Below are positions 5,683 to 12,356 of a DNA stretch of 33,506 nucleotides, in pieces (within the stretch, counting starts at the first letter, position 1; each line of letters starts with the position of its first letter). The notes under the pieces were generated by a model. The model saw only the letters and a program-made list of their open reading frames with translations. It was not told the origin of the DNA and did not search any database. The position numbers and the translations under genes were made by a program. The stretch lies in assembly GCA_035454605.1 (NCBI GenBank), contig DATIGQ010000173.1, positions 1 to 33,506 of the forward strand, in the 5' to 3' direction. Origin of the DNA: Terriglobales bacterium (GTDB lineage: Bacteria; Acidobacteriota; Terriglobia; Terriglobales; Acidobacteriaceae).

Positions 5683-6801
5683 ATGGAGATATCCGTCAGC
5701 CGGTCGGATCTTCTGAAAGAACTTGCCACCACCCAGGGTGTGGTGGAACGCAAGGCCACCATTCCCATCCTGTCAAACCTGCTGCTGGAAGCCGAGGGTG
5801 ACAAGCTTTCCATCACAGCGACAGACCTGGACCTGAGCCTGCGCGTATCCTGTGCCGCGAAAGTCAAGAAAGACGGAGCCTGCACGGTGCCGGCGCGCAA
5901 GTTTCATGACTACGTGAAGCTGCTGCCGGACGGCGACTTGTCGCTCAAGCTTCTGGAAAACCACTGGGTCCAGCTCCGGCTGGGACGCTCCAACACCAAG
6001 ATGGTGGGCATGGCGCGCAGCAACTTCCCCAGCATGCCGCCGTTCCCTGCTGCCGGCACCATCAAGCTTCCGGCCAAGGTCCTGCAGATGCTGATCAGCA
6101 AGACCATCTTCGCTATCTCCAACGAGGAATCGCGTTACACGTTGAATGGCGCGCTAATGGTGCTGAAGCCCGAGTCCATCACCATGGTGGCCACTGACGG
6201 CCATCGCCTGGCGCACATCGAGAACACCGCGGCCAAGCCCGAGGGTTTGACCGGCGGCGAGATGCGAACGCTCATCCCTCGCAAGGCCATGAGCGAACTC
6301 AACACTCTGCTCGCGGATACGGACGCCGAATCCGTCGAGTTCGCGCGCGACGAATCCACGCTGCACTTCCGCGTTGGCGGGCGCCTGCTGGCCTCGCGCC
6401 AGCTCACCGGCCAGTTCCCCAACTTCGAAGCCGTGCTGCCCAAGGACAACACCAAGGTGGTGCGCGTGGCCTGCGACGAAATCTCCGGCGCCATCCAGCG
6501 CGTGGCCCAGTTCGCCGACGAGCGCTCCGGCGCCATCCGCCTGCGTTTGGAGAAAAACGAGCTCAAAGTATCGTCGTCGTCCATGGAGACCGGCGAATCC
6601 GAGGATTCGCTCGAAACCAGCTACGCCGCCGAGCCCATCACCATCGGCTTTAATTCGCATTACCTGCTGGACTTTCTCAAGGCCGTGGGCTCAGGCGACG
6701 TGGCCTTCGAGTTCAAGGACGAGCAGTCCGCCGGCCAGCTCCGCCCCGCTGACGGCGATCCGTACAAGTACCGCTACATCGTGATGCCCATGCGGATTTG
6801 A
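5683..6801 (+). CDS. dnaN: DNA polymerase III beta subunit (sliding clamp)
   Basis: 372 aa, family length, with the three beta-clamp domains in sequence. Recognisable blocks: TTQGVVERKATIPILSNLL near the N-terminus, RYTLNGALM and ATDGHRLA in domain 2, and the C-terminal YRYIVMPMRI, which contributes to the hydrophobic cleft that binds clamp partners. The homodimer rings DNA and tethers the polymerase. AAGGA lies upstream of the ATG. The downstream VWFA-related gene follows almost without a gap. Confidence 0.98.
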   Translation: MEISVSRSDLLKELATTQGVVERKATIPILSNLLLEAEGDKLSITATDLDLSLRVSCAAKVKKDGACTVPARKFHDYVKLLPDGDLSLKLLENHWVQLRLGRSNTKMVGMARSNFPSMPPFPAAGTIKLPAKVLQMLISKTIFAISNEESRYTLNGALMVLKPESITMVATDGHRLAHIENTAAKPEGLTGGEMRTLIPRKAMSELNTLLADTDAESVEFARDESTLHFRVGGRLLASRQLTGQFPNFEAVLPKDNTKVVRVACDEISGAIQRVAQFADERSGAIRLRLEKNELKVSSSSMETGESEDSLETSYAAEPITIGFNSHYLLDFLKAVGSGDVAFEFKDEQSAGQLRPADGDPYKYRYIVMPMRI

Positions 6802-6818
6802 GTTGCGACGAGAACGCG

Positions 6819-7754
6819 ATGCTTTCCCAATCGACGCGTCTTTGGGCCCCGGTTCTTGGGGCCCTTCTGGTTTCGGGGCTCGCCACCGCGGGCCAGCAAA
6901 GCCCAGCAGCGACATCGCCGACTAACGCTGCGCCATCCGCTCAGACCGGCTCAGTCTTTTTGGTTCTAAAGGATCGCCAGGGACACCCCGCGCAGGAAGC
7001 CTCGATGGCAAAGCAGGATTTTCAGGTAGAGGTTGGCGGCAAACCAACTGAAGTGTTGGAGATTCGGCCGGCGGACAGCATTCCTCTTCGTTTTGCGCTA
7101 CTGCTCGACCTTAGCAGGTCGAATGCGGAATTTCGCAAGAGCTACACGCGATTTGCCCTGAGTGTCGTTGGGCTCTTGCGGCAGACGATACGGGCGGGAG
7201 TTGACAGGGCACTGGTCATCGGGTTTCGGGACCAAGTCTCCACCGCGATGCCATTCGAACCGGATAGGCTTTCCACGCAGCTGCAGAAGGCGGATTTCAG
7301 CGGTGGTACGGCGCTATACGATGCCATTGTTTTCGCTTGTGCGGATTTGAGTAGCACCGGCCACGCGGATACGCGCCAGGTCATCCTGCTTGTCACGGAT
7401 GGCCTAGATAACTCTAGCAAACACACTCTGGAAGAGGCGAAGCAGGCAGCTTTGCGCGCCGGGGTTGTAGTCTACTCATTGAATCTGGCTTGGGATCGTA
7501 CACGACACGGACCGAGAGTCCTCAAGGAGTTGTCCCGGATCACCGGCGGCCGGGCTTTCGAACCTTATCACGCCGACGACTTGGAACATGCTGTGGATGA
7601 GCTTGGAGGAGACTTACGCAGTCAATACATGCTCGCTTTTCGGCCGATGAATACGATGGAAAAGCATAAGGTGCGCAAGCTAAAGATCAGGCTGTCGAAG
7701 GAGAGTAAGCTGCGTGTGCTGGCTCCAGAGGCGTATTTCGCGGCACCGAACTAG
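6819..7754 (+). CDS. Secreted VWFA-related-domain protein
   Basis: 311 aa from ATG 6819. The first residues (MLSQSTRLWAPVLGALLVSGLATAGQ) look like a signal peptide. A TTG at 6798 overlapping the dnaN stop would add seven polar residues and is less likely. The mature part starts with a beta-rich segment (VFLVLKDRQGHPAQEASMAKQDFQVEVGGKP), then a von Willebrand A fold with the MIDAS pattern DLSRS and TDGLDNSS. This arrangement matches the VWFA-related Acidobacterial domain family (TIGR03436), which is strongly expanded in this phylum and of unknown function. Probably periplasmic or secreted, mediating protein contacts through the metal site. Base composition looks less GC-rich than the flanking dnaN and yfiT-like genes. 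Confidence 0.8.
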   Translation: MLSQSTRLWAPVLGALLVSGLATAGQQSPAATSPTNAAPSAQTGSVFLVLKDRQGHPAQEASMAKQDFQVEVGGKPTEVLEIRPADSIPLRFALLLDLSRSNAEFRKSYTRFALSVVGLLRQTIRAGVDRALVIGFRDQVSTAMPFEPDRLSTQLQKADFSGGTALYDAIVFACADLSSTGHADTRQVILLVTDGLDNSSKHTLEEAKQAALRAGVVVYSLNLAWDRTRHGPRVLKELSRITGGRAFEPYHADDLEHAVDELGGDLRSQYMLAFRPMNTMEKHKVRKLKIRLSKESKLRVLAPEAYFAAPN

Positions 7755-7768
7755 AAGCTAGGAACTCC

Positions 7769-8296
7769 ATGGACCTTCGCTACCCCATCGGTCCCTTTGA
7801 TTGGAAAGGCTCCGCGACCGCAGACGATCGCCGCCGCTCCATCGAAGCCATTGAGCGCGCGCCGGCAGCGTTACGCGCGGCGCTTGCCGGCCTCTCCGCC
7901 GAGCAGCTCGACACTCCCTATCGTCCCGGCGGATGGACCGTGCGCCAGGTGGCCCACCACGTTCCGGAGAGCCACATGAACGCCTACATCCGCTTCAAAC
8001 TGGCGCTCACCGAAGACCAGCCCACCATCAAGCCCTACAACGAGAGCCTGTGGGCGCAGACGGCCGACGTCGGCCTAACGCCCATCGAGACCTCCCTCGC
8101 CATCCTGGACGCGCTGCATCAGCGCTGGGTGATCCTGCTGCGCTCGCTGGCGCCCTCGGACTTCGCCCGCACTTTCACCCATCCCGAGTACGGCAAGACT
8201 TACCCGCTGGACTGGGCGCTCGCCATGTACGCCTGGCACGGCGCGCACCACACGGCTCATATCACCTCGCTGCGTGAGCTTATGGGGTGGAAATGA
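7769..8296 (+). CDS. YfiT/DinB-like putative metal-dependent hydrolase (bacillithiol-transferase family)
   Basis: 175 aa. It shows the DinB four-helix fold pattern with YfiT-specific blocks: LRYPIGPFDW at the N-terminus, LDTPYRPGGWTVRQVAHHV, SHMNAYIRFKLAL, and AWHGAHHTAHI at the C-terminus. The histidines of these blocks are the probable metal ligands. B. subtilis relatives (YfiT/BstA) are nickel- or zinc-binding, and some transfer bacillithiol; whether this organism makes bacillithiol cannot be told from the window. The end overlaps the next gene by four bases (ATGA), so the two may be coupled. It is cytoplasmic, with no signal peptide. Confidence 0.85.
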   Translation: MDLRYPIGPFDWKGSATADDRRRSIEAIERAPAALRAALAGLSAEQLDTPYRPGGWTVRQVAHHVPESHMNAYIRFKLALTEDQPTIKPYNESLWAQTADVGLTPIETSLAILDALHQRWVILLRSLAPSDFARTFTHPEYGKTYPLDWALAMYAWHGAHHTAHITSLRELMGWK

Positions 8297-9510
8297 TGCG
8301 CGCTTCCCGTCATGGGTCGCTCCTGCTGGCGTTGCTGCTGCTATTGTCGCGAGCATGGGCCGACGAAACCTCGAGAGGGCCCAACTCTCCGCCTGCGAGC
8401 GGACCACCGGTAACCATCGAGTACGCAAACGCCCGGCCCGAGGTGATAAAGGCCAGGCTGGAGCGGGTCTCGTATGGCAATGCAAGGCGCAAGGCTGCGT
8501 TGCGAGCGCTGTTTGAAGAGTCGGGTTGCTCCGCCCGGATCGCTGAGCAAGAGGTCGAGAAGTCGTCTCTTCCTAACGTGATCTGCACGTTGGGAGGCGC
8601 CAATGACTTGATGATCGTCGTAGGTGCCCATTATGACGTCGTTGAGATCGGCAAAGGGGTGGTGGACAACTGGAGCGGCGCGTCTCTGCTGCCGACGCTC
8701 TACGAGAGTCTGCGCCACCGTCCTCGCCGACACACGTTCGTATTCATCGGCTTCACCGACGAAGAAAAGGGTCTGGTGGGATCGAAGTTCTATGTGAGCA
8801 GGCTTTCTGCAGAGGAAAAGAGGAAGGTCTTGGCCATGATCAATCTCGACACTCTGGGCCTCTCACCCACAAAAATTTGGCTCAGCCACGGGGACAAGGC
8901 ACTGGCTGGCGCGCTGAACCTTGTGGCCCGCGCAACCGAGCTTCCGCTGGCGGTGGTCAATGTCGACAACGTAGGCTCGACTGATTCCGAATCCTTCGCG
9001 GGCCACGGTATCCGTGCCCTCACTATTCATTCCTTGACACAAGAGACGCTGCCCATACTGCATAGCCCGCAGGACCAGATGTCGGCCCTGCGCTTCGAGG
9101 ACTACTACGATAGCTATCGACTCGTGGCGGCGTATCTTGCCTTCCTGGACGCGCAGTTGGGTTCGGCGGCCAGCGACACGCCCGCCCATCCCCCAGCGAG
9201 CCAAGCGATCGCGCCATCACAACCCGGGAGGGTTACGCTGTCCGCAGACGCGGCGCAAAGCAATGCGCTCGACCAGCCGCCCCCGCAGTATCCGGAGCTG
9301 GCCCGGATCGCTCGCATCCAGGGGGCAGTGGTAGTGAGCATGTTGATCGGTACAGATGGGAAGGTGAAGGAAACAAAACTCGTAACCGGCCACCCAACGC
9401 TAGCACCTGCAGCGCTGAGTGCGGTACGCAACTGGCGGTACCGTCCATATCAGGTGAATGGCACGCCGGTTGAAGTTGAAACCCAGGTCACCGTGGAATT
9501 CCAGCCGTAG
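8293..9510 (+). CDS. M28-family peptidase fused to a TonB C-terminal domain
   Basis: 405 aa from ATG 8293. An N-terminal signal peptide (SLLLALLLLLSRAWA) exports it. Residues about 50-290 form an M28 zinc aminopeptidase domain with all expected ligands and catalytic residues: GAHYD (His113), VVDNWSG, TDEEKGLVGS, NLDTLG and HSPQD. Residues about 325-405 form a TonB C-terminal fold: PPQYPELARIARIQGAV, TDGKVKETKLVTGHP, and AALSAVRNWRYRPYQVNG. A Pro/Ala/Ser linker joins them. The start overlaps the upstream stop as ATGA; a second ATG at 8296 and a GTG at 8287 are alternatives. The fusion suggests a periplasmic aminopeptidase tethered to an envelope partner, but the partner is unknown. Confidence 0.85.
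   Translation: MMRASRHGSLLLALLLLLSRAWADETSRGPNSPPASGPPVTIEYANARPEVIKARLERVSYGNARRKAALRALFEESGCSARIAEQEVEKSSLPNVICTLGGANDLMIVVGAHYDVVEIGKGVVDNWSGASLLPTLYESLRHRPRRHTFVFIGFTDEEKGLVGSKFYVSRLSAEEKRKVLAMINLDTLGLSPTKIWLSHGDKALAGALNLVARATELPLAVVNVDNVGSTDSESFAGHGIRALTIHSLTQETLPILHSPQDQMSALRFEDYYDSYRLVAAYLAFLDAQLGSAASDTPAHPPASQAIAPSQPGRVTLSADAAQSNALDQPPPQYPELARIARIQGAVVVSMLIGTDGKVKETKLVTGHPTLAPAALSAVRNWRYRPYQVNGTPVEVETQVTVEFQP

Positions 9511-9704: not shown

Positions 9705-12356
<2,652 letters not shown>

Follow-up and report, generated by a model that had tools for sequence, protein, structure and literature searches.

Textbooks describe TonB as a transducer of force that is tethered to the inner membrane. 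A TonB-type domain has been linked to proteolysis in the Fus system of Pectobacterium, where, according to passages of PMC7593965, the TonB-like inner-membrane protein FusB and the periplasmic M16 protease FusC serve one receptor and act on imported ferredoxin, FusC being dispensable for ferredoxin import itself. Here we describe a gene whose product resembles this pair in idea, in a stretch of 33,506 nucleotides from a Terriglobales bacterium (assembly GCA_035454605.1, contig DATIGQ010000173.1; the whole stretch is called the window, and its contig C173). Whereas FusB and FusC are separate proteins, the window protein joins in one exported chain a peptidase of a different family, M28, and a TonB C-terminal (TonB_C) domain. 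The host assembly is a draft of 3.29 Mb in 222 contigs, 98% complete.

Results

The fusion gene and its parts are the following.

8293 to 9510, + strand: whole fusion gene, 405 amino acids (aa) and stop, in the order signal peptide, M28, linker, TonB_C (open reading frame listing, Pfam, NCBIfam)
8284 to 8290, + strand: GGGGTGG, Shine-Dalgarno-like (from the sequence; function presumed)
8293 to 8361, + strand: Sec-type signal peptide, aa 1-23, ending AWA/DE (by eye; helix 6-26 in the model)
8575 to 9129, + strand: Peptidase_M28 domain (Pfam stretch), with H113, D125, E158, D186, H257 and base E157 in the 405-aa numbering (Pfam, alignments)
9157 to 9276, + strand: Pro/Ala/Ser-rich linker of about 40 aa, mostly disordered (AlphaFold2 model)
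9277 to 9504, + strand: TonB_C domain (Pfam, NCBIfam, model, Foldseek)

An M28 enzyme and a TonB_C domain in one exported protein had first been noticed in a reading made from the letters alone (the sequence-only reading), and this observation as a whole is confirmed by Pfam, NCBIfam, the predicted fold and the metal ligands. Chance is excluded as its source: the fusion is genuine, very rare, and joins two well-known domains. The open frame spans 8287-9510 on the + strand, so that placing the gene at 8293-9510 was correct, and the ATG at 8293 is the likely and better start because it overlaps the stop of the upstream yfiT gene as ATGA (8293-8296) and has GGGGTGG closely upstream.

The peptidase half matches Peptidase_M28 (PF04389) at E 1.5e-24, with 87.2 bits against a cut-off of 21.3. 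When the protein is aligned with solved M28 aminopeptidases, the five ligands H113, D125, E158, D186 and H257 are in place, as the sequence-only reading had claimed, and so is the general base E157; we take these to be the roles of the six residues from the M28 literature, and they fit the alignments. The site is mostly conserved in a 19-row alignment of the M28 subfamily, in which L029 is without both glutamates and L025 and L027 carry Glu at D186. In a Foldseek search with the full-length model, ranks 1-35 are M28 aminopeptidases or aminopeptidase-type entries (best E 1.7e-15), the autotransporter AaaA standing at rank 17. Known M28 zinc aminopeptidases (Streptomyces griseus aminopeptidase, Legionella LapA, Aneurinibacillus 2ek8) have the fold and all metal ligands in common with the window protein, but identity in the fold alignments is 15-26% and their matched stretches carry no TonB domain. 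The enzyme is predicted to be a complete two-zinc M28 protein, and presumably acts as a peptidase.

For the C-terminal half, Pfam reports TonB_C (PF03544) at E 6.1e-20, 71.9 bits against a cut-off of 24.6, and NCBIfam reports TIGR01352 (tonB_Cterm) at 45.8 bits against 27.1. Modelled alone with AlphaFold2 from a 26-sequence alignment, the domain reaches a mean predicted local distance difference test score (pLDDT) of 89.9, and every one of the 13 PDB matches of its model at E <= 0.001 in Foldseek is a C-terminal domain, either from TonB, including complexes with FoxA, BtuB and FhuA, or from the TonB homologue FusB. The TonB fold proposed by the sequence-only reading is thus found in the predicted structure. 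The mean pLDDT of the full-length AlphaFold2 model is 83.2; much of the linker falls under 50, the low values lying at aa 293-309 and at aa 322-342, of which the latter run extends into the start of TonB_C. The M28 and TonB_C alignments were built for separate structure jobs, and a joint MAFFT alignment, in which M28 tails were drawn onto the TonB domain, was dropped. At each of the 7 near-invariant columns in the 26-sequence alignment the tail has the consensus residue; the 12 invariant columns include the window tail by definition.

The protein has a signal peptide and no anchor, in line with what had been read from the sequence. Its N-terminus consists of 12 uncharged residues followed by an Ala-Trp-Ala cleavage motif (the site was judged by eye), and no 17-residue segment there exceeds the threshold of a simple hydrophobicity scan. 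The scan is crude, since 8 of the 10 host TonB_C proteins have an above-threshold segment, and in two of them, those at C73 and C46, this segment is itself a likely signal peptide. The motif SHLS, given in passages of PMC12204202 as the TonB motor-binding motif, was searched for and is not present in the window protein. It is not decisive in Acidobacteriota, because the TonB encoded in an operon at host contig C85 is also without its His, and the host TonBs at C56 and C144 match SHLS if Thr is allowed for Ser. By eye, the C85 TonB (L134:4506-7116, G000:C85), beside ExbB-ExbD-ExbD, has Gln where SHLS has His. With a linker of about 40 aa, the window protein could not span the periplasm. It shares the sequence family and fold of the C-terminal domain with TonB energy transducers, but it is not a TonB: it has no membrane anchor, no motor-binding motif and no long linker, and an enzyme replaces the N-terminal half.

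When the tail was compared with 86 loci by tblastn, the best scores went to short-frame genes of the C85 kind, at 49-55% identity over 90-96 columns, and the nearest TonB_C of the host is the C85 TonB itself (50% identity), which heads the run tonB-exbB-exbD-exbD (MotA_ExbB, ExbD, ExbD). N-termini were examined for only some genes of this kind, namely L134, L212, L222, L229, L233 and L230, the last being the same gene as L037, and these carry an anchor. Higher identity is reached with other proteins over shorter stretches; with the signal-peptide-only protein L064, for instance, it is 59% over 73 columns. The similarity begins about 22 residues ahead of the conserved Tyr-Pro, inside the linker. 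A transfer of the tail from the gene that lies between dnaN and yfiT in the sister species was considered and rejected, since the identity is 41-47% against 98% for DnaN.

The host genome contains 14 M28 and 10 TonB_C matches, and the two occur in one gene only at the window place. The sequence-only reading had regarded the pair as unusual, and a search of class, phylum and genus samples gave no second case. In the class sample, 84 of 399 genomes gave a match at 1e-25. By hand count, the M28 part was matched at 69 places in 66 genomes, that is, the host and 65 others; apart from the host's, these matches are 32-56% identical, all other places were hit through the TonB domain alone, and an in-frame span of both domains occurs at the host place and in none of the 65 other genomes. 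Some of the 69 places are fragments (G187, G263, G269), and the one in G028 is joined to a VWA-type part. In the phylum sample, which overlaps with the class sample, 21 of 396 genomes match at 1e-30 and only the host spans both domains. In both searches scoring was limited to the best 4 candidates in each genome, and weaker copies can therefore escape; the searches cover Acidobacteriota and this M28 subfamily, and would pass over a fusion that involves a distant M28 family. The genus sample is two genomes, and the sister genome G001 holds no close subfamily member (best M28-type match 30%).

Searches around the M28 relatives gave the same picture. None of 18 Acidobacteriota loci with M28 relatives has a TonB_C match at 1e-4; the 18 named relatives all come from metagenome-assembled genomes (Acidobacteria, Acidobacteriaceae, Terriglobia, Bryobacteraceae, Bryobacterales and two Candidatus genera). 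Among 96 loci with an M28-type match at 1e-5, which include overlapping and repeated places, TonB_C lies within 1.5 kb on the same strand only at the window's own place, itself represented by four overlapping loci. Eight loci chosen for long frames or for alignments going beyond residue 300 (G163, G158, G140, G276, G649, G321, G149 and G011) were examined for a second fusion, and in all eight the frame stops after M28, with no TonB domain; the alignment of G163 went up to residue 377, but only across five stop codons. In the literature, no M28-TonB_C fusion was found in the titles and abstract openings searched, a scope outside which subscription papers mostly lie. Because M28 subfamily relatives lacking a TonB domain are widespread, the domain was most likely added in the window's lineage, making this a lineage-specific fusion. 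By eye, each of L073:78-3464 (G028) and L074:2068-4029 (G036) joins a VWA-type C-terminal part to an M28-like N-terminal part whose metal site appears degraded; M28 and VWA are also near neighbours in the window.

TonB_C domains are numerous in the phylum, with 4 to 29 matches per genome in the host and 20 relatives. Among 81 TonB_C frames from these genomes, a sample that is not random, favours long frames in part and includes all 10 of the host, 13 appear by eye to have a signal peptide only: the window's, those at host C73 and C46, L055, L064, L069, L146, L153, L216, L217, L226, L234 and L237. The sequence-only reading had set the window protein against TonB domains that normally come with an N-terminal anchor; the protein is indeed anchorless, but in this phylum that is not exceptional. 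A second known domain was found in 6 of 16 Pfam-scanned TonB_C proteins, the window's not counted, namely GAF (L057), PilZ with GAF (L150), AAA_22 (L144, L228), M56 (L063) and DUF6600 (L153), and the other 10 have TonB_C alone or with a below-cut-off TolA match. L058, L060, L143 and L145 are receiver-like by sequence, and Pfam gave no second domain in L058, the one scanned. TonB_C behaves as a promiscuous C-terminal module at these loci (L055-L072, L142-L153, L212-L251), standing also behind several unknown exported domains. A 140-aa TonB_C frame at L137:4650-5069 (G000:C81) is without the N-terminal helix of its likely G001 counterpart L215, perhaps because its 5' part is broken or mis-sequenced.

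Two arrangements of TonB_C bear comparison with the window protein. In L063, a peptidase family is likewise fused to TonB_C, but it is M56 (BlaR1-type), a membrane peptidase, whereas the window enzyme is exported. The NCBIfam model MxcH (NF038079) also joins TonB_C to a non-TonB protein, and its N-terminal part weakly matches the window domain at 27.7 bits, but this is far under the cut-off of 925 and the model describes a receptor. Within the literature scope given above, no survey of TonB_C fusions in Acidobacteriota was found. We consider the tendency of the phylum to reuse this domain, of which we found no description in the literature searched, more interesting than this gene.

The genes around the fusion run dnaA, dnaN, VWA, yfiT, M28-TonB_C, gyrB.

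6798 to 7754, + strand: exported VWA protein, TIGR03436 acidobacterial type (Pfam, NCBIfam)
7769 to 8296, + strand: upstream yfiT-type bacillithiol transferase (DinB fold), its stop overlapping the fusion start (Pfam, NCBIfam)
9717 to 12356, + strand: downstream gyrB, its leader conserved in the sister species (named by sequence and by a 97% identical G001 counterpart, no Pfam scan)

The sister species, G001, has dnaN, yfiT, gyrB and the gyrB leader in conserved form and no fusion gene. Either the window's lineage acquired or assembled the gene here, or G001 lost it; a single sister genome does not settle which. On either side of the gene the flanks, yfiT and the gyrB leader, are colinear with G001, which makes a chimeric assembly unlikely, some doubt being kept by the single genome that has the gene. 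Among 20 loci (those of the M28 relatives and the G001 counterpart), dnaN or gyrB occurs only in that of G001, itself without M28.

The interval after dnaN is highly variable between genera (L184-L211), with mscL-like, exported PsbP-like, VWA and other genes by eye, and gyrB lies within 1.5 kb in 1 of 28 post-dnaN loci (L189), five of which end early at contig ends. In the gene that follows dnaN, the window (6841-6877) and G001 (L069:2237-2273, G001:C27:251236-251272) share 37 identical bases that code for signal peptide. The stretch is single-copy in each sister genome with up to 3 mismatches allowed, and the mature proteins behind it are unrelated (VWA in the window; in G001, TonB_C with an unknown domain), as though the signal peptide had been retained and the body exchanged. 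When 320 neighbouring frames from 34 loci were clustered, no neighbour of the M28 subfamily recurred in more than 7 loci; the 34 loci are partly redundant, L084 and L102, for instance, being apparently one contig. At 6 of the 34, a VWA-type protein is encoded within about 5 kb, a figure from which no inference is drawn.

Discussion

We tentatively propose that, after a lineage-specific fusion, the TonB domain docks the M28 peptidase at outer-membrane transporters, where the enzyme may trim imported peptides. The signal peptide would export the protein, leaving it free in the periplasm, and with no inner-membrane anchor it would transmit no force. To judge from its predicted fold, TonB_C could still bind the TonB boxes of outer-membrane transporters, and the peptidase would thereby be kept where peptides or peptide-bearing ligands enter, so that those arriving might be trimmed. 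By analogy, one chain would do the work that the separate FusB and FusC do for ferredoxin in Pectobacterium. A missing anchor would not alone prevent such docking, since passages of PMC11658791 report soluble TonB fragments studied in complex with FhuA and with the BtuB TonB box. Indirectly, the best tail matches being of the C85 kind, and C85 lying in an exb run, favour a domain that still recognises receptors.

Several observations weigh against this proposal. Docking to a transporter for peptide uptake had been suggested by the sequence-only reading, with co-occurring TonB-dependent receptors as a check. The host genome does contain 11 Plug-domain receptors (3 strong and 8 weaker matches), but there is no Plug match, and no receptor gene, on C173, so that no dedicated partner is indicated; the Fus genes, in contrast, share one operon with the receptor gene according to passages of the Fus paper. 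M28-type glutaminyl cyclases enter the Foldseek list from rank 36 (E 3.5e-11). TonB_C is also carried by proteins that have no obvious connection with transport (GAF, PilZ, AAA, DUF6600), which suggests another or broader role of the domain, and the single occurrence of the fusion offers no evolutionary test of selection on the pair. The earlier interpretation is thus supported in part: the intact domains, signal peptide, fold and unusual pairing stand, and the idea of an anchorless TonB domain as exceptional does not.

A recent neutral fusion, in which the tail has little or no function and the enzyme works as its standalone relatives do, seems to us rather unlikely, although it would suit a fusion found in one genome only, M28 relatives that manage without a tail, and a variable dnaN-gyrB interval. 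Against it, consensus is kept at the 7 near-invariant columns at only about 50-55% identity to the best-scoring relatives, and the tail has therefore diverged without visible decay. Were the tail without function, this would be an ordinary neutral fusion.

It is somewhat less probable that TonB_C is a cell-wall or general periplasmic retention module, keeping the peptidase at peptidoglycan, where it would perhaps act on wall peptides. ExeA/GspA-like proteins usually end in a peptidoglycan-binding domain, and in relatives of the host AAA_22 proteins bear TonB_C behind a membrane helix (L144, L228). The nearest host TonB, however, is that of C85, beside exbB-exbD-exbD, and the 13 fold matches are all TonB-type, which is weak evidence here. 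Passages of PMC10771500 (2024) term the nature of the peptidoglycan interaction of the Ton system elusive and report interaction for ExbD.

The remaining explanations have little in their favour. An anchorless TonB domain with the same fold, and presumably the same ligand, might act as a soluble competitor that occupies TonB boxes and dampens TonB-driven import, but this would leave the attached peptidase unexplained, the locus gives no sign of regulation, and we regard it as very unlikely. That an assembly artefact joined two genes is a little less credible still: a single draft genome in 222 contigs would allow it, but the 405 codons are continuous in frame between colinear flanks. Least probable is secretion of the peptidase by way of an Oar-like receptor working in reverse, with the TonB domain as the targeting signal, in the manner of PopC, which needs Oar in Myxococcus (PMC6434023), as passages of that paper describe no TonB domain on PopC and the window contig has no Plug-domain receptor.

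We could speculate further, though we find it doubtful, that in Acidobacteriota the TonB C-terminal domain became a portable tag, docking signal-peptide-only enzymes, further exported proteins and sensors of the inner membrane (GAF, PilZ, receiver-like, AAA) at outer-membrane receptors or at any display of TonB boxes. In that case, receptors would be scaffolds for periplasmic enzymes and signalling, with the window M28 fusion as a catalytic example. If docking is true, the TonB domain, intact on an enzyme free in the periplasm, would be a localisation handle, an idea that the many anchorless and sensor-fused copies in the phylum make directly testable.
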